Source: a virus. Taken from it: a stretch of 51,826 bases of DNA. The translations under genes were made by a program, and so were the position numbers. The stretch lies in IMG/VR virus record IMGVR_UViG_3300025010_000080, positions 1 through 51,826 of that record. One strand, given 5' to 3'. The notes beneath the pieces were generated by a model, which did not search any database, was not told the DNA's origin, and saw only the letters and a program-made list of their open reading frames with translations. Position 1 is the first letter of the stretch. Each line of letters begins with the position of its first letter. Below, piece by piece: positions 21,034-51,508 of the stretch.

Positions 21034-22017
21034 CTACTGAACCAAGTATTGATGGTGCGATTGCTTACGTTTTTCATTAGTAACATCGACGTATATCATC
21101 GTTGTTGATGGATCAGAGTGACCTAATAGTGCTTGTACTGAAGCTAATTCGGCACCATTCGCGAGCATTAATGTAGCAAAAGTGTGACGAAATATATGTG
21201 GGTATACATTCTTAGTGACCTCTGATCTCTTAGCAATCACTTTTACCTCTCGCTCAATTCCCCTACAGGATAATCTTTGATGAGGCCTTCGTTCAGAAAC
21301 AAATAGAGCGGGGTCCTTATCTATTCGCTTCATAAGATATTTCTTTAGATGGTACATGGCTTTAAACGAAAAATATACCGGTCGTTCCTTGTTACCTTTA
21401 CCAATGACTAACACCGATAGCGCCTGATAATCTATATCATTACGGCTCATTTTCTGTATCTCAGAGAGTCTTCCGCCAGTAGCATAAAGTACTTCTACGA
21501 GCGCACGTTCTCTGGGGCTTACACAAGCCTCTCGAATCATTTCTAACTCCTCAATAGTCAACGCCTTTGCAACTCGCTGTTCCTTCTTCAAAGGTCGGAT
21601 ACGCTTGGTTGGGTCATGTTGGATAATCTCTTCTGAGGAAAGCCATCCAAACATACTCTTGAGCACCGACAGACGTTTTGCTAGTGACGAGGTTTTTAGA
21701 TGGTCGCATTCGCTTAGGTATATTCTCAGATCCGCTGTTGTAATCTCACTCGTTGCTTTTGATACACGTTTAGCGAAAATCCTAAGTTCATGCGTATATC
21801 CTTTGAGTGTAGACTCAGCAAGTCCTTCGAGTTTCTTTCCAGATAGAAAAAGCTTTATCTTTTGTGTTAGATCTGGATGACCAATCGCAACCAAAGCTGG
21901 CTTTATATCGTATTGTGATAGGATACTAACGACTCGTTGTTTATTCGCGTCACAAGTAATAGTCATTAATTGACCCAACAGAATCTCAGCGGTCGAACTT
22001 AATATTTTCGTCGACAT
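21034..22017 (-). CDS. Tyrosine site-specific recombinase (XerC/D-like integrase)
   Basis: A 327-residue recombinase. The core-binding SAM-like domain spans ~50-135 and the catalytic domain ~150-320. All active-site residues are present: R183 (GGRLSEI), K207 (GKGNKERPV), H274 and R277 (HIFRHTFA), H300 (LLGHSD) and nucleophile Y309. It could integrate the phage or invert a DNA segment. It is the only gene besides its regulator on the - strand and splits the tail/lysis gene series. AAGAGGAG lies before the ATG, and its 5' end overlaps the RHH gene by 19 bases, so they form one operon. Confidence 0.9.
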   Translation of the reverse strand: MSTKILSSTAEILLGQLMTITCDANKQRVVSILSQYDIKPALVAIGHPDLTQKIKLFLSGKKLEGLAESTLKGYTHELRIFAKRVSKATSEITTADLRIYLSECDHLKTSSLAKRLSVLKSMFGWLSSEEIIQHDPTKRIRPLKKEQRVAKALTIEELEMIREACVSPRERALVEVLYATGGRLSEIQKMSRNDIDYQALSVLVIGKGNKERPVYFSFKAMYHLKKYLMKRIDKDPALFVSERRPHQRLSCRGIEREVKVIAKRSEVTKNVYPHIFRHTFATLMLANGAELASVQALLGHSDPSTTMIYVDVTNEKRKQSHHQYLVQ

Positions 22018-32546: not shown

Positions 32547-33335
32547 ATGAGAGTAAACGGTGTCCAAAAAATCGGACAAGCCTTGGTTAAAAACTCGCCA
32601 ACAATTCTTACAGGATTAAGTGTGGCTGGACTTGTTACTACTACTTTGATGGGAATTAAGGCTACGCCGAAAGCCTTTCAAATTATCCAGGATGAAAGGT
32701 TAACGAGAGCTGATTCCGACGAAACGTTCATTTATGGGAGTACACCTTTACCGAAAAAAGACATCATCAAACTAACCTGGAAATGCTACATCCCAACCGT
32801 AGTCATGGGGGGACTTACCATCGCTTGTATTATCGGTGCGAACTCAATTAACCTACGTAGGAACGCTGCTCTAGCAAGTATATATTCTTTATCCGAAGCA
32901 GCTCTTAAAGAATACCAGGCCAAGGTGGTCGAGACTATTGGTAAGAACAAGGAGCGAGCTATTAAGGACGAGATCGCAAAAGATCGTATCACTAAGAACC
33001 CAGTCAGCGATAAGGAATTGATAATCACTGGCGCTGGAGAGACTTTATGTTATGACTCGCTTTCTGGTAGATATTTCAAGAGTGACATCGAGCAGATTCG
33101 AAGAGTACTTAACGATCTTAGTCGGGACTTATTGACTGATTTGCATGGGTTTATTACTTTGAATGAAGTGTATATCGGCCTTGGTTTGAAAGGTACTAAA
33201 ATGGGGGAGATGCTCGGTTGGCATATTGACGATGGTCTTATTGACCCCGACTTCAGTACCCAGCTAACCGAGAATGGAACGCCGTGTCTCGTGTTGGATT
33301 TTAGTGTGGAACCAAGGTATGGATATAAAGATTAG
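32547..33335 (+). CDS. DUF6353 family membrane protein (copy 1)
   Basis: A 262-residue protein with a hydrophobic N-terminal segment (KNSPTILTGLSVAGLVTTT, ~15-35) and a second span at ~83-101 (IPTVVMGGLTIACIIGA). A large soluble C-terminus contains HGFITLNEVYIGLGLKG and GWHIDD. It is a paralogue of the 37939 product, matching in both spans and in the C-terminal LNE-Y...GW segment. DUF6353 proteins are common in Firmicutes phages; their role is unknown to me. CGGAGG lies before ATG 32547. No promoter is seen directly upstream. Confidence 0.75.
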   Translation: MRVNGVQKIGQALVKNSPTILTGLSVAGLVTTTLMGIKATPKAFQIIQDERLTRADSDETFIYGSTPLPKKDIIKLTWKCYIPTVVMGGLTIACIIGANSINLRRNAALASIYSLSEAALKEYQAKVVETIGKNKERAIKDEIAKDRITKNPVSDKELIITGAGETLCYDSLSGRYFKSDIEQIRRVLNDLSRDLLTDLHGFITLNEVYIGLGLKGTKMGEMLGWHIDDGLIDPDFSTQLTENGTPCLVLDFSVEPRYGYKD

Positions 33336-37577: not shown

Positions 37578-37946
37578 ATGGCCTCTGGGATTAAAATTAA
37601 TGAGGAGAAAGCAACTAAATTGTGGCAGGACGGACTCCTCGATAGAGATATTGCTAGGATACTAAAATGTCGAGAAAGCAGTATCTGGAACTGGCGTAAG
37701 AAGCGTGGTATGAGTAGTAATAAAAATGTTTTTGATCGGAAAGAGGTACGAAACACGTTAATGATTAGTGAAAATTATATATTTAACATCGGAATAGACA
37801 TTAACGGTCATCAAGCTATATTAACCATTGCCAAGTATGTTGGCTCAAAAATGGTAATCGTGAACACTCTGACCGGCGAGGAAGCCGTGTCTTTGTACGA
37901 GGAAATGACCGATACGAAACTTGAAAGGGGAAATAAAAATGTTTAA
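37578..37946 (+). CDS. Helix-turn-helix DNA-binding protein
   Basis: A 122-residue protein with GGAGGG before ATG 37578. Residues ~8-45 fit a resolvase-type helix-turn-helix (KATKLWQDGLLDRDIARILK then CRESSIWNWRKKRG). The C-terminal half is a small alpha/beta domain (NIGIDINGHQAILTIAKYVG). It could act on phage promoters, and is a candidate for the factor that reads the 14-bp island box; that link is an inference only. It overlaps the next gene by eight bases. Confidence 0.65.
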   Translation: MASGIKINEEKATKLWQDGLLDRDIARILKCRESSIWNWRKKRGMSSNKNVFDRKEVRNTLMISENYIFNIGIDINGHQAILTIAKYVGSKMVIVNTLTGEEAVSLYEEMTDTKLERGNKNV

Positions 37947-38850
37947 ACTTGTAGTATTAAAAACCGTATTTAACCGTACGACAGGACGTAGCCTCCTGCT
38001 TCTAAAAAAACACAGCCCAGAGATCTTGATGGGGGTTGGTGTTATTGGGACTGTAGTTAGCACCGTTATGGCTTGTAAGGCTACATTAAAGGCTGAGGAT
38101 ATTATTGTTGAGGCTAAAGAGAAGCTTGAGAAGGTTAAACACGTTAACGAGACAGTCGATAAAGAGAAATACACAGAACTCGATTACAAGAAAGATCTGA
38201 CTGTTGTGTACGCTCAAACAGCCGTGGACTTTATTAAACTCTATGGACCATCATTAGTAATTGGCTTGTCTGCTATCGGATGTATGCTCAGTGCTCACGG
38301 GATTATGCGGAAACGTAATCTCGCTATAATAGCAGCGTATAAGGCTGTTGAGGAAAGCTTTGCTAAATATCGTAAGCGTGTTGTAGAAGATTGGGGAATC
38401 GAGAAGGATTTTGAATACAAGAATGGTATCCGGCATACACTGGTTAATGAACTTGATGATGAAGGCAAGCCTACTGAAAAGATCAATGTGGTAACGACGC
38501 AAGATCCAAATGGGTATAGTCAATACGCTCGATTCTTTGATGAGGCCAGTACTCAATGGCAGAAACTCCCTGAGTACAATCAGATGTTCCTAAAATGTCA
38601 ACAGAACCATGCTAATGATCTTTTGCATTCTCGTGGGCATGTCTTCTTGAATGAGATATACGATATGATTGGCGTACCTAGATCTAAAGAAGGTGCTGTT
38701 GTTGGTTGGGTTAGAGGTGCTGGTGATGATTTTGTAGACTTTGGTATATTCACTAACGACAACGAACGGGTACGTGACTTCGTGAACGGGTATAATCGTA
38801 GTATTCTGCTCGACTTCAATGTTGACGGGGTTATATACGACTTGATTTGA
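37939..38850 (+). CDS. DUF6353 family membrane protein (copy 2)
   Basis: A 303-residue protein from ATG 37939 (GAAAGGGG upstream). Hydrophobic spans at ~24-44 (HSPEILMGVGVIGTVVSTVM) and ~100-120 (LVIGLSAIGCMLSAHGIM) are separated by charged helix. The C-terminal part has HVFLNEIYDMIG and GWVRG. It is a paralogue of the 32547 product. The two may form a heteromer in the membrane. The following 122 bases to the next gene hold no gene that I can support. Confidence 0.75.
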   Translation: MFKLVVLKTVFNRTTGRSLLLLKKHSPEILMGVGVIGTVVSTVMACKATLKAEDIIVEAKEKLEKVKHVNETVDKEKYTELDYKKDLTVVYAQTAVDFIKLYGPSLVIGLSAIGCMLSAHGIMRKRNLAIIAAYKAVEESFAKYRKRVVEDWGIEKDFEYKNGIRHTLVNELDDEGKPTEKINVVTTQDPNGYSQYARFFDEASTQWQKLPEYNQMFLKCQQNHANDLLHSRGHVFLNEIYDMIGVPRSKEGAVVGWVRGAGDDFVDFGIFTNDNERVRDFVNGYNRSILLDFNVDGVIYDLI

Positions 38851-40497: not shown

Positions 40498-41097
40498 ATG
40501 GAGCAAGAAGTACCTATTCAGATGTCTGATGCCGCTATGGAGAACATGTATTACTTCTGGCTTTGCGATCTTATTAAGGTTAATAAGCCAGATCAAAGTT
40601 ATTTTCTTCTTGTGAAATCTTTGTATGATAAAGTGTTTACTTGGACGGTGCCGAACGATGACAACCGATTGTTTGAGGGTAGGCAGTTACGAGAAAGATT
40701 TTGTGAGGAGAATGAGATAGATTACATCTATAGTCGTCGTTATGCTTGGTTCGTGAAGGACGTTTCGGCGTTAGAAGTTATCATAGCTTTAGCTGATAGA
40801 TGCGAAAGTATAATGATCGATCAGTGTGATAATACCCCGATGAGAGACTGGTTTTGGATGATGATGACAAATTCTGGGTTGGATAAGTTCACGGATGAGG
40901 CCTATTATTACTTGAATGGGGCGGCTGAAGTGGACTTAATTTTGACTAAAATCATCGATCGAGGGTATAGTAGAAGGGGTGTTGGGGGTCTATTTCCTTT
41001 GAAATATTATAAGAAAGACCAACGAAAAGTGGAACTTTGGTATCAAATGCATTCATATTTGATTGAAAATTACTATGTTGATGGAGTAATTATGTGA
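40498..41097 (+). CDS. Conserved phage protein of unknown function
   Basis: A 199-residue helical protein. I choose ATG 40498, 11 bases after AGAGGAG, over ATG 40489, which is only two bases from it. NTPMRDWFWMMMTNSGLDKF (~124-143) is a conserved phrase in many phage proteins near the replication genes. Its 3' end carries the first of the GTGACACTT repeats of the origin-like region. Confidence 0.65.
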   Translation: MEQEVPIQMSDAAMENMYYFWLCDLIKVNKPDQSYFLLVKSLYDKVFTWTVPNDDNRLFEGRQLRERFCEENEIDYIYSRRYAWFVKDVSALEVIIALADRCESIMIDQCDNTPMRDWFWMMMTNSGLDKFTDEAYYYLNGAAEVDLILTKIIDRGYSRRGVGGLFPLKYYKKDQRKVELWYQMHSYLIENYYVDGVIM

Positions 41098-41334
41098 CAC
41101 TTGTTACACTTTTGAAAAAGTTTTTGACGAGTATTTTTTTATTTTTAGAAAAGTGTGACGAATAAGTGTCACACTGTGACACTTTTGTGACACTTTTGAA
41201 AACCCTGCAGCCTTAGGGCCATGCGGGTTCCAGGGTTTTTGTGACACTTGTTACACTTTTTTTCTATACTTTATATAGAAAAGTAATAATATATAAGAGT
41301 TTATAAAGTGTCACAAAAACGTCACAAGTGTCAC
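41094..41334 (+). repeat. Iteron cluster, putative replication origin
   Basis: The 9-mer AAGTGTCAC or its reverse complement GTGACACTT occurs at 41094, 41164, 41176, 41187, 41241, 41306 and 41326, with one-base variants at 41151 and 41250 and further near-matches. The copies form two clusters around a hairpin. The right half is AT-rich (TATACTTTATATAGAAAAGTAATAATATATAAG). Placement directly before the helicase-primase-polymerase gene suits an initiator-binding origin or operator. Confidence 0.65.
41199..41240 (+). terminator. Terminator-like hairpin inside the iteron region
   Basis: AAAACCCTG (41199-41207) pairs perfectly with CAGGGTTTT (41231-41239), followed by T. The symmetric A and T flanks allow termination in both directions. 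It could also be a structural part of the origin. Confidence 0.65.
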
Positions 41335-41359
41335 AGACGTTTTGAGAGGAGATTCCAAT

Positions 41360-44300
41360 GTGGATTTTTACCAAATCAAGGAGAGGAGTACTAAGAACGG
41401 CGTCATAGAAATATATCCAGATTTTAAGGTATGCCGATCAAAAGATTTAATGGTTAGGGGAAGATCGTTCTACGCCATATGGGACGAAGGACGGGGGCTA
41501 TGGTCTACTGACGAATATGACGTACAAAGACTCGTTGACGCCGATCTTATGGCTTATCGAGAAAAGCTAGTAGTAAACACTTCTGGTATGGTTCAGGTTA
41601 AATTAATGAGTGACTTCTCTAGTAAGTCCTGGGTGGATTTTAAAAGTTACATGAGTCATATTTCAGATAGCTCAATTCAATTAGATACCAAACTAACTTT
41701 TTCAAATACAGATGTAAAGAAGAAAGACTACGTAAGTCGAAGATTGAGTTATCCATTAGAGGAGGGTAAATATGGAGCGTTTGACGAACTTATCGGAGTT
41801 TTATATGACCCAGAAGAACGCGCAAAGATTGAGTGGGCTATTGGCGCAGTTGTGTCGGGCGATGCAAAAGATATCCAAAAGTTTCTTGTCTTTTATGGCG
41901 AAGCTGGAGCCGGTAAATCCACCATCCTTAATATTATCCAACAATTATTCTTGGGATATTATACGACGTTCGAAGCGAAGGCGCTCACGTCGTCAGGTAA
42001 CGCATTTGCGACCGAAGTGTTCAAAGCGAACCCACTTGTCGCAATACAACATGATGGTGACCTGTCGAAGATTGAAGATAATACGAAACTTAACTCGATC
42101 ATTTCTCACGAAGAAATGACAATGAATGAGAAGTATAAACCCTCCTACATGGCTAGGGTGAACTGCTTCTTATTTATGGCCACTAATCGCCCAGTAAAGA
42201 TTACTGACGCTAAGTCTGGAATTATTCGTAGATTGATCGACGTTAAGCCTTCTGGTAGGAAGCTACCTTCGAATAAGTATCACTCATTAATGTCTCAGAT
42301 CGATTTTGAGTTGGGCGGTATCGCTAACCATTGTCTCGATGTGTATAGAGAGATGGGTAAGAACTATTATTCGGCTTATCGCCCACTTGATATGATACTT
42401 CAAACTGACGTGTTCTTCAATTTTGTGGAGTCTAATTATGACACGTTCAAATCACAAGACAGCGCAACTTTATCTCAAGCTTATGAGATGTATAAAACTT
42501 ATTGCTCCGACTCACTAATTGAGTACAAGGCGCCAAGACATAAATTCAGGGAAGAGTTTAAGAATTACTTTGCTAGTTTCTCGGAGGTTGCCCGCGTTGA
42601 TGGAGCACAAATAAGGAGTTATTACTCTGGGTTCTTATCTAGTAAATTTATAACTGCTGTAGCACCAAAAGAAGAAACGTTAAACTCGTTAGTTCTCGAT
42701 TGTGTTGAGTCATTGTTTGACGATGTATGCTGTAGTTGTCCAGCCCAATACGCTAGTTCAACTGATAAACCAATTATGAAGTGGGCAGAAGTCGGAACTA
42801 CCTTATCCCAAATAAACACAAGTAAACTTCATTATGTTAAAGTCCCAGAGAATCATATTGTTATAGATTTTGATTTGAAGGATAATAATGGCGAGAAATC
42901 TATCGAAAAGAATATCGAAGCGGCTAGTAAATGGCCAGCTACATATGCTGAATTTAGTAAAAGTGGCGGTGGCCTACATCTGCATTATATTTATGACGGT
43001 GATACCAATAAACTTAGTCGGGTATATTCGGAAGGAATAGAAATTAAAGTATCTGTTGGTGATGGTTCGCTGAGAAGAAAACTGAGTAAGTGCAACAATA
43101 TACCAATAGCCACTATAAATTCTGGATTACCATTTAGGGAGGAAAAGATGATTAACTTTGACGCGGTAAAGAGTGAAAAGTCACTTCGCGAATTGTTAAA
43201 GCGAAACCTCAATAAGGAGATTCATCCAGGAACTAAGCCTAGTATCGATTTTATCCATAAAATTTTAGGGGACAGTTACGAGTCGGGGCTTAGGTATGAC
43301 GTTACTGACATGCGACCTCGTATTCTAGCTTTTGCTAACAATAGTCATAACCAAGCAGACTATTGCATCAAGTTAGTATCCAAGATGCAGTTCAAATCAG
43401 AAGAAGCTAGTGTATCACCAGAAGCTTATGAGAAAGATGAATTGGTATTCTTTGATGTTGAGGTGTTTCCAAATCTATTTGTGGTCGTTTGGAAATTCAA
43501 AGGTAAAGATAAAGAAAAAGTAAAAATGATTAATCCATCTCCTACGGCTATCGAAGAACTCATGAAACTTAGGCTTATAGGATTTAACTGTAGAAGATAT
43601 GATAACCATATTTTGTATGGAGCATACATCGGTCTTAATAATCAACAGTTATACCAATTAAGTCAACGGATTATCAGTGGTAGTAAAAATGCCATGTTCG
43701 GCGAAGCTTATAACATATCATATACCGACGTTTATGATTTTGCGTCAGCAGGAAACAAGATGAGTCTTAAGAAATGGGAAATCAAACTTGATATACACCA
43801 TCAGGAGTTAGGTCTTCCATGGGATAAGGAAGTCCCAGAAGCAAAATGGGAAATAGTCGCTGATTATTGCGGAAACGACGTCGATGCCACAGAAGACACT
43901 TTTAATCACTTGGCTGGCGACTGGGCCGTAAGACAAATTCTTGCGGAATTAAGTGGTCTAACTGTAAATGACACAACGAATCAGCACACCATAAAGATTG
44001 TATTCGGAAATAACAAACACCCACAGGACGAATTGGTATACACGGATTTGAGTGTTATGTTTCCTGGATACGAGTTTAAAAATGGTAAAAGCTATTACCG
44101 AGGAATCGAAGTTGGAGAAGGCGGTTATGTTCATGGCGAACCTGGAATGTATATAAATTCTCCAGTTGCAGACGTAGCCTCAATCCATCCAACTAGTGTG
44201 GAAGAATTAAACTTACTTGGTCCATATACTAAAAACTACAGTGAACTTAAACAAGGGCGAATAGCTATCAAACATAAAGATTTTGATACATTAATGACGC

Positions 44301-45286
44301 TGTTAAGTGGTCGTCTTATTCCGTTCATAGAAAACGCACTTAGCGATAATCCTAGATTCACTTTAAAAGATGTGTCTAATGGGTTAAAAACTGCGCTTAA
44401 TTCTGCTTATGGATTAACCTCGGCTAAATTTGATAATCCATTTAGAGATCCTCGAAATGTGGATAACATTGTTGCTAAACGCGGAGCACTATTTATGATT
44501 GACCTTCAATTCGCGGTCCAAGAGAAAGGATTTCAGGTTGCCCATATTAAGACCGACTCTATTAAGATTCCAAATGCTACAGATGAAATAATGGAATTTG
44601 TTATAGAGTTTGGTAAGAAATATGGGTATAATTTTGAGATCGAAGATATCTATAGTCGCTTCTGTCTCGTAAACGACGCAGTATATATTGCTCGAATTGA
44701 TGATTGGGAAAATAGCAAAGACAAGGATTTGATAAGAGCAAACGGATGGACCGCAACTGGAGCTCAATTCGCTCATCCATATGTATTTAAGACCTTGTTT
44801 AGTAAAGAGCCAATCACATTCAAAGATATGCGCGAAACCAAATCGGTAACTACTGCTATATATCTTGATATGAATGAGGGGCTTAAGGAAGACGAACATG
44901 AGTATCATTTCGTAGGAAAAGTTGGATCATTCTGTCCAATCAAACCTGGTAGAGGAGGGGGAGTGTTACTTCGCGAGAAAGAAGATAAGTATTATGCGGT
45001 CTCAGGTAGTAAGGGATATCGATGGCTTGAAGCTGAGGTTGTGGAGACTCTAGGAAAACAAGAGGATGTTGATCGCTCATATTATAAGTCATTGGTCGAC
45101 GATGCTGTAGCAAACATTTCAAAGTTTGGAGATTTCGAATGGTTCGTTTCGGAAGATGCTGAATATGGATGGCCAGAGTGTAACTTAAATGGTCGCTCAA
45201 CTATATGTTCAGAATGTGAGAATTGGATTAATGAGCCATCAAAACCAACCGAATGTAAACTGGGATTCGATTGTATGCCGTTTTGA
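41360..45286 (+). CDS. SF3 helicase - AEP-type primase - family B DNA polymerase fusion
   Basis: A 1308-residue protein from GTG 41360, eight bases after AGAGGAG; the ATG overlapping it is out of frame. SF3/D5-like helicase: Walker A GEAGAGKST (180-188), HDGDL (~228-232) and FLFMATNRP (~270). Archaeo-eukaryotic primase-like motifs: IDFDLKD with D503 and D505, GGGLHLHY with H540/H542, and a later EIKV. Polymerase B exonuclease: FFDVEVF with D699/E701, FNCRRYDNHILY, and YCGNDVDA with D840. Polymerase motifs: A D938-VASIHP, B LNSAYG (~1012-1018), C KTDS with D1066. A C-terminal cysteine cluster (CSEC, CKLGFDC) may bind zinc. One polypeptide could unwind, prime and copy DNA. The motifs are seen directly; joint activity is inferred. 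Confidence 0.85.
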   Translation: MDFYQIKERSTKNGVIEIYPDFKVCRSKDLMVRGRSFYAIWDEGRGLWSTDEYDVQRLVDADLMAYREKLVVNTSGMVQVKLMSDFSSKSWVDFKSYMSHISDSSIQLDTKLTFSNTDVKKKDYVSRRLSYPLEEGKYGAFDELIGVLYDPEERAKIEWAIGAVVSGDAKDIQKFLVFYGEAGAGKSTILNIIQQLFLGYYTTFEAKALTSSGNAFATEVFKANPLVAIQHDGDLSKIEDNTKLNSIISHEEMTMNEKYKPSYMARVNCFLFMATNRPVKITDAKSGIIRRLIDVKPSGRKLPSNKYHSLMSQIDFELGGIANHCLDVYREMGKNYYSAYRPLDMILQTDVFFNFVESNYDTFKSQDSATLSQAYEMYKTYCSDSLIEYKAPRHKFREEFKNYFASFSEVARVDGAQIRSYYSGFLSSKFITAVAPKEETLNSLVLDCVESLFDDVCCSCPAQYASSTDKPIMKWAEVGTTLSQINTSKLHYVKVPENHIVIDFDLKDNNGEKSIEKNIEAASKWPATYAEFSKSGGGLHLHYIYDGDTNKLSRVYSEGIEIKVSVGDGSLRRKLSKCNNIPIATINSGLPFREEKMINFDAVKSEKSLRELLKRNLNKEIHPGTKPSIDFIHKILGDSYESGLRYDVTDMRPRILAFANNSHNQADYCIKLVSKMQFKSEEASVSPEAYEKDELVFFDVEVFPNLFVVVWKFKGKDKEKVKMINPSPTAIEELMKLRLIGFNCRRYDNHILYGAYIGLNNQQLYQLSQRIISGSKNAMFGEAYNISYTDVYDFASAGNKMSLKKWEIKLDIHHQELGLPWDKEVPEAKWEIVADYCGNDVDATEDTFNHLAGDWAVRQILAELSGLTVNDTTNQHTIKIVFGNNKHPQDELVYTDLSVMFPGYEFKNGKSYYRGIEVGEGGYVHGEPGMYINSPVADVASIHPTSVEELNLLGPYTKNYSELKQGRIAIKHKDFDTLMTLLSGRLIPFIENALSDNPRFTLKDVSNGLKTALNSAYGLTSAKFDNPFRDPRNVDNIVAKRGALFMIDLQFAVQEKGFQVAHIKTDSIKIPNATDEIMEFVIEFGKKYGYNFEIEDIYSRFCLVNDAVYIARIDDWENSKDKDLIRANGWTATGAQFAHPYVFKTLFSKEPITFKDMRETKSVTTAIYLDMNEGLKEDEHEYHFVGKVGSFCPIKPGRGGGVLLREKEDKYYAVSGSKGYRWLEAEVVETLGKQEDVDRSYYKSLVDDAVANISKFGDFEWFVSEDAEYGWPECNLNGRSTICSECENWINEPSKPTECKLGFDCMPF

Positions 45287-45800: not shown

Positions 45801-46343
45801 ATGGCTGTTAAAAATAATATTGTAATTGAAAATGCCCGTATTGGATTTCGTAACTTCTCAGGTAAAGAAGGACAGTTCAATCCAGCAGGTCGGAGAAATT
45901 TCTGCGTATTTATTGAAAGTGACCTAGCCAATCGTCTTGAAGAGGATGGATGGAACATACGTTGGCTCGAACCAAAAGATGATCATTCCGAAAGACAAGC
46001 GTACTTACAAGTAGCCGTTAGTTACGCCAATATACCACCAAAGATTACAATGGTTTCAAGTAGAGGAAAAAATCTTCTTGATGACAGTTCCATTAACATA
46101 CTAGATTGGGCCGAAATTCAAGAAGTTGATGTAGCCATTCGCCCATACAACTGGTCTATGCATGAGGGGACCAAGAATGCTAAGAGTGGTGTTAAAGCCT
46201 ATGTTAAAACGATGCGTGTGGTTATAGTCGAGGATGAGTTTGAACATAAATATGTCAACTCCCCGGACAGTGCCGCCGCATCAATAGGTGGTTGTGGTAA
46301 CTGTGAAGCTTGTGACGGTAGTTGTAAGCATCATGACGATTGA
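45801..46343 (+). CDS. Probable single-stranded DNA-binding protein (phage replication)
   Basis: A 180-residue protein with GAAAGGGG before ATG 45801. NNIVIENARIGFRNFSGKEG, NPAGRRNFCVFI and DDSSINILDWAEIQEVDVAIRPYNW are strongly conserved in a phage family placed with replication genes. The beta-rich core fits an OB-fold. The end is acidic (HHDD) as in SSB proteins, with a cysteine cluster (CGNCEACDGSC) before it. It overlaps the helicase start. I recognise the family; the ssDNA-binding role is inferred. Confidence 0.6.
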   Translation: MAVKNNIVIENARIGFRNFSGKEGQFNPAGRRNFCVFIESDLANRLEEDGWNIRWLEPKDDHSERQAYLQVAVSYANIPPKITMVSSRGKNLLDDSSINILDWAEIQEVDVAIRPYNWSMHEGTKNAKSGVKAYVKTMRVVIVEDEFEHKYVNSPDSAAASIGGCGNCEACDGSCKHHDD

Positions 46344-47556
46344 GTTAAGGGATTACCAAATTGACGCCATAGATAAACTACAGTCTGGCTCCATCCTGTG
46401 TGGTGGAGTCGGCTCCGGCAAATCACGGACCGCCTTAGTTTATTTTTTTGTTAAAGCTTGTGATGGTAGAATAAAGATCAACGGTAAAGGTCCCACAGTT
46501 GCGATGAAGAAACCAAAAGATCTTTATATTATTACAACAGCTAAGAAACGTGACTCCCTCGAATGGGATGGAGAATGCGCGCCGTTAATGCTTTCGCGAA
46601 AACCAGAGTTAAGTATTAATAATGTAAAAGTCACTATTGATTCATGGAACAACTTACCGAAATACGCTAGTGTCAAAAACTCATTCTTTATTTTTGACGA
46701 ACAGAGACTCATTGGTTCTGGAACTTGGGTGAAATCTTTTTTGAAAATCGCAAAAGTAAATCGTTGGATTCTATTAAGCGCTACTCCTGGAGATACATGG
46801 AGTGATTATATTCCGGTATTCCTGGCAAACGGTTTTTACAAGAATCGTACAGCGTTTCTCCAAGAACACGCAGTATATAATCGATTTACTAAATATCCAA
46901 AAATTGAGAAATTTATAGGCACTAAACAATTAACCAAACAACGCGATCAAATCACAATAATCATGCATTACGAGAAACAAACTACATCGATTACCGAAAC
47001 AGTAGTCGTACCGTTTGATAAAGAAATGTTTAATCAAGTCATGATTAAACGATGGAACATATTTGCAGATAGACCGGTTAAGGCTATTGGTGAATTATGT
47101 TATCTAATGCGTAAAGTTGTGAATAGTAATCCAGCTAGATTAGATGCCGTCAAGAAAATTATTAAAGAGCATCCTAAAGTAATTATATTTTACAACTTTG
47201 ATTACGAACTTGAAATGCTTAGAACTCTCGGATCATCTTTGTCAATTCCGTCTAATGAATGGAACGGCCACAAACACCAAGACGTACCAAAAGGAAAAAC
47301 CTGGATTTATCTAGTACAGTATTCTGCTGGGGCGGAGGGATGGAATTGTATTGAAACTGACACGACGATTTTCTATTCGCAGAATTACTCCTACAAAATA
47401 ATGGTTCAGGCAGCAGGTCGGATCGATCGTCTCAATACTCCATTTTCTAAATTATATTATTATCATCTCAGATCTAATTCTAGTATCGATTTATCAATAT
47501 CCAAAGCTATAAAAGCAAAGAAAGATTTCAATGCTTATCGTTTTATGAAGATGTAG
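46333..47556 (+). CDS. SF2 DEAD-like helicase
   Basis: A 407-residue helicase. Q-motif-like ELRDYQIDAI, Walker A GGVGSGKSRT with K30, motif II D122-E123-Q124-R125, motif III SAT (149-151) and motif VI QAAGRIDRLN (~359-368) are all present. It is a compact form with two RecA-like domains. It probably remodels forks or joint molecules with the polymerase and SSB. The start ATG 46333 overlaps the previous gene by 11 bases; the longer frame to 46288 lies inside that gene. Confidence 0.85.
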   Translation: MTIELRDYQIDAIDKLQSGSILCGGVGSGKSRTALVYFFVKACDGRIKINGKGPTVAMKKPKDLYIITTAKKRDSLEWDGECAPLMLSRKPELSINNVKVTIDSWNNLPKYASVKNSFFIFDEQRLIGSGTWVKSFLKIAKVNRWILLSATPGDTWSDYIPVFLANGFYKNRTAFLQEHAVYNRFTKYPKIEKFIGTKQLTKQRDQITIIMHYEKQTTSITETVVVPFDKEMFNQVMIKRWNIFADRPVKAIGELCYLMRKVVNSNPARLDAVKKIIKEHPKVIIFYNFDYELEMLRTLGSSLSIPSNEWNGHKHQDVPKGKTWIYLVQYSAGAEGWNCIETDTTIFYSQNYSYKIMVQAAGRIDRLNTPFSKLYYYHLRSNSSIDLSISKAIKAKKDFNAYRFMKM

Positions 47557-47767: not shown

Positions 47768-48085
47768 ATGTTAGAAAGTGCATTTCAGGCCACTCTCATT
47801 AAAGAACTTGAAACGTTGTTTGTTGGTTGTGTAATTTTAAAAAATGATGCTAACTACATTCAAGGGTTTCCTGATTTATTAATTTTATATAAAGATCATT
47901 GGGCTGTCTTAGAATGCAAGCAAAACGCAAAATCTAAATTTCAACCAAACCAAGAATACTATCTCGAATTACTTGACGGTATGTCATATGCAAGCGTTAT
48001 TTATCCAGAAATAAAAGAGGAGGTATTACATGAACTTCAAAAAGCATTTGGACATCGACGGACAACACGCATTCCTAAGCGCTAG
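47768..48085 (+). CDS. VRR-NUC-type nuclease
   Basis: A 105-residue PD-(D/E)XK nuclease with GFPDLLILYKDHWAVLECKQ: D36 and E49-C-K51 form the active site, and the small size is normal for phage VRR-NUC proteins, which act on branched DNA. GGCGGTGA precedes ATG 47768. Its last 56 bases overlap the next nuclease gene in another frame, so the two are tightly coupled. Confidence 0.8.
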   Translation: MLESAFQATLIKELETLFVGCVILKNDANYIQGFPDLLILYKDHWAVLECKQNAKSKFQPNQEYYLELLDGMSYASVIYPEIKEEVLHELQKAFGHRRTTRIPKR

Positions 48086-48584
48086 TAAATACCACTGGGT
48101 AAATTATGATACTGAGAAACTTGCTATGTCGTACTCAAAATATTTGGCGGCACAACGAGGAACTCGACTTCATGAATTTGCACACGAATGTATACAACTC
48201 GGTATCAAACTTCCTAAAACCAAGAAGACTCTAAACCTTTATATCAATGACGCTATCGGCTACAAAATGACAACGGAACAAATATTATATTATTCTGAAA
48301 ATTGTTTTGGAACTGCTGATGCTATAGCGTTTCGTCAAAACATTCTTAGGATTCATGATCTCAAGAATGGTTCTACACCAGCGTCATTTCGTCAGCTCGA
48401 AATCTATGCTGCTTTATTTTGTCTAGAGTATAACATAAAACCGGAGACAATAACTATAGAGCTTAGACTTTATCAATTAGATGAGATACTAATTCATGAG
48501 CCACTGCCTGAAGACATTCTCTACATAATGGATAAAATCATAATGTTTGATAAGCAGCTAGATAAAATTAAGATGGGAGAATGA
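48030..48584 (+). CDS. PD-(D/E)XK nuclease, Cas4/RecB-like
   Basis: A 184-residue protein from ATG 48030 with AGAGGAGG upstream. H48 (GTRLHEFAH), D97 (GTADAIAF), D110-L-K112 (IHDLKNG) and Q122/Y126 (RQLEIYA) fit the RecB-type nuclease motif series. No cysteine cluster for an iron-sulphur site is seen, so it is RecB-like rather than true Cas4. It may process DNA ends during phage recombination or packaging. Confidence 0.75.
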   Translation: MNFKKHLDIDGQHAFLSASKYHWVNYDTEKLAMSYSKYLAAQRGTRLHEFAHECIQLGIKLPKTKKTLNLYINDAIGYKMTTEQILYYSENCFGTADAIAFRQNILRIHDLKNGSTPASFRQLEIYAALFCLEYNIKPETITIELRLYQLDEILIHEPLPEDILYIMDKIIMFDKQLDKIKMGE

Positions 48585-48586
48585 CC

Positions 48587-51508
48587 ATGCCTAATGAGAT
48601 ATTGCATTATGGGACCCCCCACCATTCGGGCCGATATCCATGGGGATCTGGAGATGACCCTCAACAGAGGAATAAAAGTTTTCTTGGATATGTCGACGAT
48701 CTAAAAAAGAAAGGCGTTAGTGATGTTGATATATGTAAAGGTCTTGGTATAACTACTCAACAGCTTCGAGCTAGAAAGTCAATAGCTAAATCCGAATTAC
48801 GTAAAGCGGATGTCGCACAAGCAATCAAACTAAGAGATAAAGGTTATTCTAATGTGGCTGCTGGAAAACGTATGGGTATTAACGAATCGTCTTTTAGAGC
48901 GTTACTTGATAAAGCAATTCAAGAGCGTTCAACCATAACCGAGTCAACGGCTAACATGCTTAAAGAAAATGTTGAAAAAAAAGGTTATATTGATGTTGGG
49001 GTTGGAACCGAAAGACATATAGGTATAAGTAGAACCAAATTAAAAACCTCAATTGAAATGTTAAAAGCGGAAGGCTATATCGTTAGTTACAATCAGGTAG
49101 AACAACTTGGAACTGGGAAAAAGACATCTGTAATGGTTTTATCTAAACCAGAAAAAGCTCAGACCAGAGCTATTTTTAAATTAAAAAATTCAGGATATTC
49201 TGATTCCGACATTGCTAAAGAACTTAATATTAGTGAATCGAAAGTTACTTCATCGATGAAAGAAGCATATTCAAAAGCGTATAAAAACACCGATAATATT
49301 AAAACGATTACAGATCATTCCGAAGATGGTGGTAGATCGTTTCTAGGCCTTGAACCTATACGAAGCGTTAATTCAAACAAGGTACATATCCGGTATAGGG
49401 AAGAAGGCGGCTCTGATAAAGATGGCGTAATCGAATTGAGAAAAGGTATTGAAGAGTTATCTTTAGGCAAATCTAAGTATGCACAAGTTCGTATCGGTGT
49501 CGATGGAACTCATTATATGAAAGGAATGGCTATGTATAGTGATGATGTTCCAAAAGGAGCTGACATCATATACAATACCAATAAACCAAAGGGTACCGAT
49601 CCAAAGAAAGTTTTTAAAGAAATGAAAGATGATCCCGATAATCCTTTTGGAGCAGTCGTTAGACAACAGCATCATATAACTGAAGACGGAAAGAAGAACC
49701 CTAATTCGTCTGATATGTTAGAGCTAAAACGGAATGGTTTATCATACGATCAAATAGCTAAAAAAATGAACTTATCGGAAGCACTTGTTAAATCTTGTAT
49801 TGGTGTAAAAGCATTAAATATTGTCAACGAAGAAGGCGAATGGCAAGAAAAATGGTCTAAAAGTTTATCTTCACAAATGTTATCGAAACAAACGCCAAGC
49901 CTTGCGAAGAGACAATTAGGATTAACTTATGCTGCCAAAAAAGAAGAATTCGATGAGATCGTAGCATTAAACAACCCTGTAGTTAAAAAGAGACTTTTTG
50001 ATTCGTTCGCCGATGATTGTGATTCAGCGGCCGTTCATCTGAAAGCGGCAGCACTCCCTAGAGAAGGTTGGCATGTTATTCTACCGTTTCCTGGAATGAA
50101 GGAAAATGAAATATTTGCGCCTAATTACGACAATGGCGAACGAGTGGTTCTTATTAGATATCCGCATGGTGGAATATTCGAGATCCCAGAATTAGTAGTC
50201 AATAATAGGTATGCGCCAGCTAAGAATTCAATTGGGCAAGCAAAGGATGCCGTTGGGATTAATCATAAAGTAGCAGAGAGATTATCTGGGGCAGACTTTG
50301 ACGGAGACACAGTACTTGTTATACCGAACCCTCCAAGTGTTGGTATTAAAACTAAATCGCCATTAAAAGGTCTTAAAGACTTCGATCCTAAAATTAGCTA
50401 TAAACCTTATGATGGTATGAGAACTATCGATGGTGGAACATATAACGAGAAGACTGGTAAAGTTGACTATGGTGGGAAACGTCCAATAACCCGAACAATG
50501 CAATTAAAAATGGGAGATGTGTCAAATCTAATAACCGACATGACCATTAGAGGGGCAAATGATGACGACGTAGCTGCCGCTGTAAGACATTCAATGGTCA
50601 TCATCGATTCAACGAAACATAGTCTTAACTACACGCAATCTTATAAAGATAACGGGATCGCTAAGCTTAAAGAGCGATATCAAGGTTCTAAAAGTAGTGG
50701 GGCGTCTACTCTTATTTCTAAAGCGTCTTCGGAAACATCGGTTGGTTTTAGAAAGTTAAAAACCAACACTAAGAAGATGACTCCGGAAGAATTAGCTCGA
50801 TACAACTCTGGTGAAAAAGTTTATTCGTACACAGATGAAACCTATACTAATAAGAAAGGTAAAGCGGTGTCCCGTAAAACGGCATCTAAGAAGATGGCCG
50901 AGGTAAGTGACGCGTTTACCCTATCTTCCGGGACAAGAATGGAAACCGTATATGCTACTCATGCAAATAGTTTAAAAGCTCTTGCTAATACGGCCAGGAA
51001 AGAATCGTTAAGTACTAGACCTATCGCTTACTCCCCTTCGGCTAAGAAAGCTTATGCTCCTGAAGTAGCATCGTTAACTGCGCATTTAAACATAGCGCTA
51101 AAGAATGCGCCATTAGAAAGACAGGCCCAGATATTAGCTAACACTGTGGTTTCGGCTAAACGAGCGGCGAATCCTGATATGGATTCCTCTGATATTAAAA
51201 AGATTAAAGGTCAAGCTCTTGCTGAAGCTAGAACCAGGGTTGGTGCAAAGAAACAACGTATTGAAATCACAGACCGAGAGTGGGAAGCTATTCAATCAGG
51301 AGCAGTTAGCACTAATACTTTAGCTCAGATTCTAAGTAATACTGACCTAAACAAAGTTAAACAATTAGCTACGCCTAGAACTAGCTCTTCGTTGACTAAA
51401 GCCAAACAAGCAAAGGCTGAGCTAATGCTTGCTGCTGGTTACACTCAAGCCGAAATTGCCAATCATCTTGGTGTATCTGCATCGACAATATCTAAACTAA
51501 TACAATGA
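48587..51508 (+). CDS. YonO-like single-subunit RNA polymerase with several helix-turn-helix segments
   Basis: A 973-residue protein from ATG 48587, eight bases after GGGAG; ATG 48581 is too close. Residues 570-574 are DFDGD within ERLSGADFDGDTVLVIPN, the metal-binding signature of double-psi beta-barrel RNA polymerases, in the form seen in YonO of phage SPbeta. RYPHGGIFEIPEL and DAVGIN upstream match that family. Helix-turn-helix segments lie near 37-67, 78-109, 195-225, 376-405 and at the very C-terminus (~944-973, GYTQAEIANHLGVSASTISKL). It may transcribe part of the phage genome. The catalytic motif is visible; promoter choice and the use of the HTH segments are inference. Confidence 0.75.
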   Translation: MPNEILHYGTPHHSGRYPWGSGDDPQQRNKSFLGYVDDLKKKGVSDVDICKGLGITTQQLRARKSIAKSELRKADVAQAIKLRDKGYSNVAAGKRMGINESSFRALLDKAIQERSTITESTANMLKENVEKKGYIDVGVGTERHIGISRTKLKTSIEMLKAEGYIVSYNQVEQLGTGKKTSVMVLSKPEKAQTRAIFKLKNSGYSDSDIAKELNISESKVTSSMKEAYSKAYKNTDNIKTITDHSEDGGRSFLGLEPIRSVNSNKVHIRYREEGGSDKDGVIELRKGIEELSLGKSKYAQVRIGVDGTHYMKGMAMYSDDVPKGADIIYNTNKPKGTDPKKVFKEMKDDPDNPFGAVVRQQHHITEDGKKNPNSSDMLELKRNGLSYDQIAKKMNLSEALVKSCIGVKALNIVNEEGEWQEKWSKSLSSQMLSKQTPSLAKRQLGLTYAAKKEEFDEIVALNNPVVKKRLFDSFADDCDSAAVHLKAAALPREGWHVILPFPGMKENEIFAPNYDNGERVVLIRYPHGGIFEIPELVVNNRYAPAKNSIGQAKDAVGINHKVAERLSGADFDGDTVLVIPNPPSVGIKTKSPLKGLKDFDPKISYKPYDGMRTIDGGTYNEKTGKVDYGGKRPITRTMQLKMGDVSNLITDMTIRGANDDDVAAAVRHSMVIIDSTKHSLNYTQSYKDNGIAKLKERYQGSKSSGASTLISKASSETSVGFRKLKTNTKKMTPEELARYNSGEKVYSYTDETYTNKKGKAVSRKTASKKMAEVSDAFTLSSGTRMETVYATHANSLKALANTARKESLSTRPIAYSPSAKKAYAPEVASLTAHLNIALKNAPLERQAQILANTVVSAKRAANPDMDSSDIKKIKGQALAEARTRVGAKKQRIEITDREWEAIQSGAVSTNTLAQILSNTDLNKVKQLATPRTSSSLTKAKQAKAELMLAAGYTQAEIANHLGVSASTISKLIQ

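Follow-up and report, generated by a model that had tools for sequence, protein, structure and literature searches.

A GP55-Type Replicase Combining Helicase, Primase, and Polymerase Domains in One Chain and a Repeat Cluster Upstream of Its Gene

The Replicase Locus

The window analysed was the whole stretch of 51,826 nucleotides of the IMG/VR record IMGVR_UViG_3300025010_000080. On its plus strand, at 41360..45286, there is an uninterrupted frame of 1308 residues, with a GTG start at 41360 preceded by GAGAGGAG and a stop codon ending at 45286. PHROG 4210, annotated as "DNA polymerase", matched residues 1-1267 with 1990 bits. Only the helicase part was detected by Pfam and NCBIfam, as DUF5906, the P4-type primase C-terminus staying below threshold, and phmmer with the single window protein against the PDB gave no useful match. 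From the open frame, the phrog_4210 match, and the identity to GP55, the gene was annotated as a four-activity replicase of the GP55 type. An artefact of frame or assembly was considered and rejected, because the full-length frame recurs in about 70 independent contigs and in 252 phage records.

In the gap of 262 bp upstream of the gene, AAGTGTNACA occurs nine times in exact form over 243 bp (41093..41335), with six copies on the minus strand and three on the plus strand, a cluster of iteron appearance which is conserved in relatives. Downstream, the plus strand encodes a phage ssDNA-binding or single-strand annealing protein (45801..46343), a DEAD-type helicase (46339..47556), an endonuclease (phrog_93, 47768..48085), and an exonuclease (phrog_3953, 48030..48584). 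This order of annealing protein, helicase, endonuclease, and exonuclease, followed by a protein resembling an RNA-dependent RNA polymerase, is shared with lactococcal phage 1706, where additional genes are interspersed among the shared replication genes. No further DNA polymerase or primase was found among the window proteins scanned.

Domain Organization of the Protein

One chain carries an SF3 helicase, an AEP primase core, a helical domain, and a family B polymerase with a 3′-5′ exonuclease. All the motifs named by a sequence-only reading of this DNA lie in the one unbroken frame of 1308 residues, at the residues which it had given, and the order that it proposed (helicase, primase, exonuclease, and polymerase, with the helicase N-terminal to the primase) was correct. 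Conservation was evaluated in an alignment of 72 sequences, formed by 71 full-length proteins (the window protein and its IMG/VR relatives) plus GP55. The possibility that the motifs were chance matches was rejected, because their columns are conserved across these 72 sequences. All the domain coordinates below are on the plus strand.

The protein begins with an alpha/beta domain, conserved in the alignment and visible in the structure model (residues 1-120, 41360..41719). It is followed by the helicase domain (residues ~150-365, 41807..42454), in which we found the Walker A lysine K186, the acidic residues D232/D234 of Walker B, the sensor-1 asparagine N276, and the arginine finger R290/R291; K186, N276, and R290/R291 are present in 72 of 72 homologues. 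The model of residues 1-436 had a pLDDT of 88.9, and with Foldseek it matched the SaPI5 primase-helicase, the C-terminal region of NrS-1, and the D5-type helicases of poxvirus and ASFV (D5/E5), with E-values of about 1e-11 to 1e-9. The helicase is therefore of the SF3 type with a D5-like fold, as the sequence-only reading had supposed. Behind it, the predicted secondary structure describes a winged-helix-like domain (residues ~370-430, 42467..42649), a candidate for iteron binding.

The AEP (PriS-like) primase core occupies residues ~431-600 (42650..43159). The AEP superfamily motifs DxD, sxH, and hE/D are all present in this middle region, with D503/D505, H540/H542, E561, and R572/R573. The third carboxylate, E561, had not been listed among the earlier motifs. 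The model of residues 425-690 had a pLDDT of 85, and its only Foldseek matches below E=1e-3 were the PrimPols NrS-1 and pRN1 ORF904 (E-values of 4e-6 to 6e-4, probability 0.94-1.00), the TM-scores being low (0.25-0.36) and the rmsd 7-18 Å. The AEP profile found no sequence match in the PDB, which made the structure comparison necessary. Since the TM-scores are low, the assignment of the fold leans on the motifs, the E-values, and GP55 taken together. The sequence-only reading thus survived both of the refutations it had named, a middle region without the AEP fold and a helicase part without SF3 features. Four helices behind the core fit the helical domain of GP55 (aHD) and are placed between primase and exonuclease (residues ~605-680, 43172..43399), with Y646 and F658 equivalent to Y655 and F667 of GP55.

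The low TM-scores to known AEPs, and the fact that primase activity is here a prediction, would also be compatible with an AEP-like region that serves as a noncatalytic scaffold, the priming being done by the host DnaG or by another phage primase. This appears very unlikely: D503, D505, H540, and E561 are invariant in the 72 sequences and H542 is kept in 71 of them, and in GP55 the D509A mutation at the same site, as well as the deletion of the PriS-like domain or of the aHD, stops primer synthesis (PMC12205980).

The last two domains are the 3′-5′ exonuclease (residues ~695-870, 43442..43969), with D699/E701, D748, and Y836/D840, all of them present in the 72 sequences, and the family B polymerase (residues ~871-1262, 43970..45145), with D938, H943, R967, K971, K1010, and K1064-T-D1066-S. 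Motifs A (D938), B (K1010-YG1018), and C (D1066) are found together with Exo I-III; D938, K1010, Y1017, and D1066 are conserved in 72/72, and profiles of the C-terminal part matched E. coli Pol II, archaeal PolB, and Pol alpha. Two departures from the textbook PolB can be put to the test. In motif A, H943 takes the position of the steric-gate tyrosine, and motif C reads KTDS and not DTDS, with K1064 in place of the first aspartate; both are invariant in the family, GP55 included. GP55, having both the histidine gate and KTDS, is an active polymerase (PMC12205980), and the text of that paper mentions neither the steric gate nor KTD.

Comparison with GP55 and Other Relatives

GP55 of lactococcal phage 1706 has been purified and it unwinds, primes, extends, and proofreads (Zhang et al. 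2025, PMC12205980). Its helicase runs on UTP or dTTP, its synthesis of RNA primers requires both the PriS-like and the helical domain, and the DNA polymerase and the 3′-5′ exonuclease activities are also present; dependence on UTP or dTTP and a dimeric state are counted among the traits of the type, of which more than 1000 homologues have been reported (PMC12205980). GP55 (YP_001828703, 1317 residues against 1308) shares 39% identity end to end with the window protein, in which the GP55 order of helicase, PriS-like domain, helical domain, and exonuclease/PolB is found unchanged. The mutated residues of GP55 that were checked, K189, D509, D712, E714, D949, Y655, and F667, are all identical in the window protein, where they correspond to K186, D505, D699/E701, D938, Y646, and F658, and their columns are invariant in the 72 sequences with the exception of Y655 (Y in 69 and F in 3). 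The Walker B region differs, being DADSDIS in GP55 and QHDGDLS in the window protein, and therefore the dependence on UTP or dTTP need not hold for the latter.

Taking into account GP55 and its many relatives, the window protein belongs to a kind already known. The view that such a combination was not well described does not stand, since GP55 has been characterised with the identical order and over 1000 homologues (PMC12205980); the reading of the protein as a one-chain replisome, on the other hand, gains support from the full-length homology and the residue identity. The window protein is very probably a GP55-type four-in-one replicase, and its membership in the family and its four activities can be proposed by homology with high confidence.

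The same fusion was searched for in other phages. By tblastn 434 phage records matched, and in at least 252 of these GenBank records the match covered 80% or more of the protein; the IMG/VR profile scan gave at least 598 stretches encoding a relative among the 600 matches listed. The window protein itself confirms that GP55-type replicases are widespread beyond lactococcal and human-gut phages. The proteins called "DNA primase/polymerase" in SEA-PHAGES (PHROG 4210; Arthrobacter, Gordonia, Streptomyces, and Rhodococcus phages) are full-length homologues with 48-59% identity, whose annotations omit the helicase or the mechanism; the record of Rhodococcus phage ReqiPepy6 already notes a primase-like N-terminus and PolB. 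A literature search on the Arthrobacter phage primase polymerase returned no match. NrS-1 PrimPol and pRN1 ORF904 likewise join an AEP core and an SF3-type helicase in one protein, but with the AEP N-terminal to the helicase, a helix bundle domain in place of the aHD, and no PolB domain. The closest helicase fold (7ola) is that of the D5-type helicases SaPI Rep and SCCmec Cch2, which lack a polymerase domain.

The Upstream Repeats

Exact AAGTGTNACA does not occur elsewhere in the 51.8 kb window. Between the reverse and the forward copies runs an AT-rich stretch (41260..41307), a possible unwinding element or promoter, which holds a small inverted repeat (41260-41268/41274-41282) and TATATAAGAGTTTATA. 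The repeats thus adjoin the replicase gene and flank an AT-rich stretch, which is the layout of an iteron origin. The GC skew showed no change of sign at 41 kb.

Of the 119 relatives with enough upstream sequence, 41 carry upstream repeats, a relative being counted when the extended motif occurs three or more times in the 400 bp preceding the replicase. This motif has 255 copies in 16.4 kb of upstream sequence against 42 in the 631 kb that make up the rest of the loci, an enrichment of about 230-fold. A typical layout is that of reverse copies, AT-rich stretch, forward copies, and then the ribosome-binding site. A stretch related to TATATAAGAGTTTATA is often located 63-89 bp before the replicase start in relatives, a motif that is weak when taken alone, because 74 loci match it with up to four mismatches in another 400-bp window. 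Several divergent relatives show changed repeats (TGCAACA, CGCAACA, GGTACA, GGCACA, TCCAACAAA, and TCTTACAAA), with TCCAACAAA in the relative L135; the sequence of the repeat drifts between phages. Upstream of the replicase, repeats were absent in the actinophage members examined and in phage 1706, which has no iteron cluster directly before GP55. The trait clusters in the tree, yet it needs about 16 changes.

The upstream repeat element is the main new part of this work, and we found no description of such an element; the terms "iteron" and "origin of replication" are both absent from the text of the GP55 paper (PMC12205980). As far as we found, the recurrent repeats are the first candidate origin for the GP55 family, and with it a minimal one-protein replicon becomes testable in vitro.

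Proposed Mechanism and Function of the Repeats

Considering the full-length homology and the residue identity to GP55, from which we infer the four activities and the catalytic roles, the N-terminal SF3 helicase would open the DNA and translocate on it, the AEP core with the helical domain would synthesise a short RNA primer, and the C-terminal family B polymerase would extend this primer and proofread, with the helicase contributing strand displacement during extension. Replication might start at the AAGTGTNACA cluster immediately upstream. This origin step cannot be transferred from GP55, since GP55 has no iterons directly upstream. The helicases SaPI Rep and SCCmec Cch2 bind iterons within an origin that adjoins the genes encoding them (PMC7581432), and by this analogy the simplest reading is that the origin would be recognised by the winged helix of residues 370-430, which may bind the repeats much as SaPI Rep binds its iterons through its C-terminal domain. 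In those elements the origin is downstream of the helicase gene, and in the window the repeats are upstream.

That the protein works at the adjacent iterons, as had been suggested from the sequence, is plausible and is strengthened by the comparative data on the repeats, and the chances that they form an iteron-type origin are about even. That the replicase itself binds them is a possibility that we regard as doubtful, at roughly one chance in three. It is similarly tentative that the winged helix reads AAGTGTNACA, in which case one polypeptide would unite origin recognition, unwinding, priming, synthesis, and proofreading. The columns of the winged helix are those which best separate repeat-bearing from repeat-free phages, but this split follows ancestry, and a comparable peak at the winged helix arises with other ancestry-following splits; in matched sister pairs there was a slight excess only (ratio 1.08 against 0.87-0.99). 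The covariation is consequently suggestive only, because ancestry confounds it.

The position of the repeats, just before the ribosome-binding site and overlapping promoter-like sites, agrees as well with operators for a regulator of the replication genes having no role as an origin. Several helix-turn-helix proteins are encoded in the window, and repeat-free replicases are common and evidently functional. Such an operator role is nearly as likely as the origin role. However, nine or more copies, running in both directions on either side of an AT-rich stretch in a layout that many phages share, exceed the usual need of an operator. Origins adjoining the genes of the SaPI and SCC helicases, whose fold is the same, contain repeats of this kind to which those helicases bind (PMC7581432). 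A further reading would have the AEP domain prime at the repeats, which would then be a cluster of priming sites and not binding sites for an initiator. The repeat contains GTG, the sequence at which the related AEPs NrSPol and ORF904 prime, and GP55 prefers CCAAC (PMC12205980), L135 having repeats of TCCAACAAA. We judge this reading improbable: each repeat spans ten bases and both orientations occur, sites for AEPs have 3-5 bases and are common everywhere, and the specificity of GP55 is loose (PMC12205980).

Other Features of the Window

At 48581-51508 there is a protein of 975 residues that matches phrog_4291 ("RNA-dependent RNA polymerase"), with the ADFDGD motif of two-barrel RNA polymerases and several segments similar to helix-turn-helix or sigma region 4 in the same chain; an annotation of the phrog_4291 type is also seen at the end of phage 1706. 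The uncharacterised family phrog_2152 is represented twice in this phage, by separate proteins encoded at 32547-33335 and 37921-38850, the second matching DUF6353 as well. Between the tail and the lysis genes, on the minus strand, there is an integrase (21034-22017), which suggests a temperate phage.
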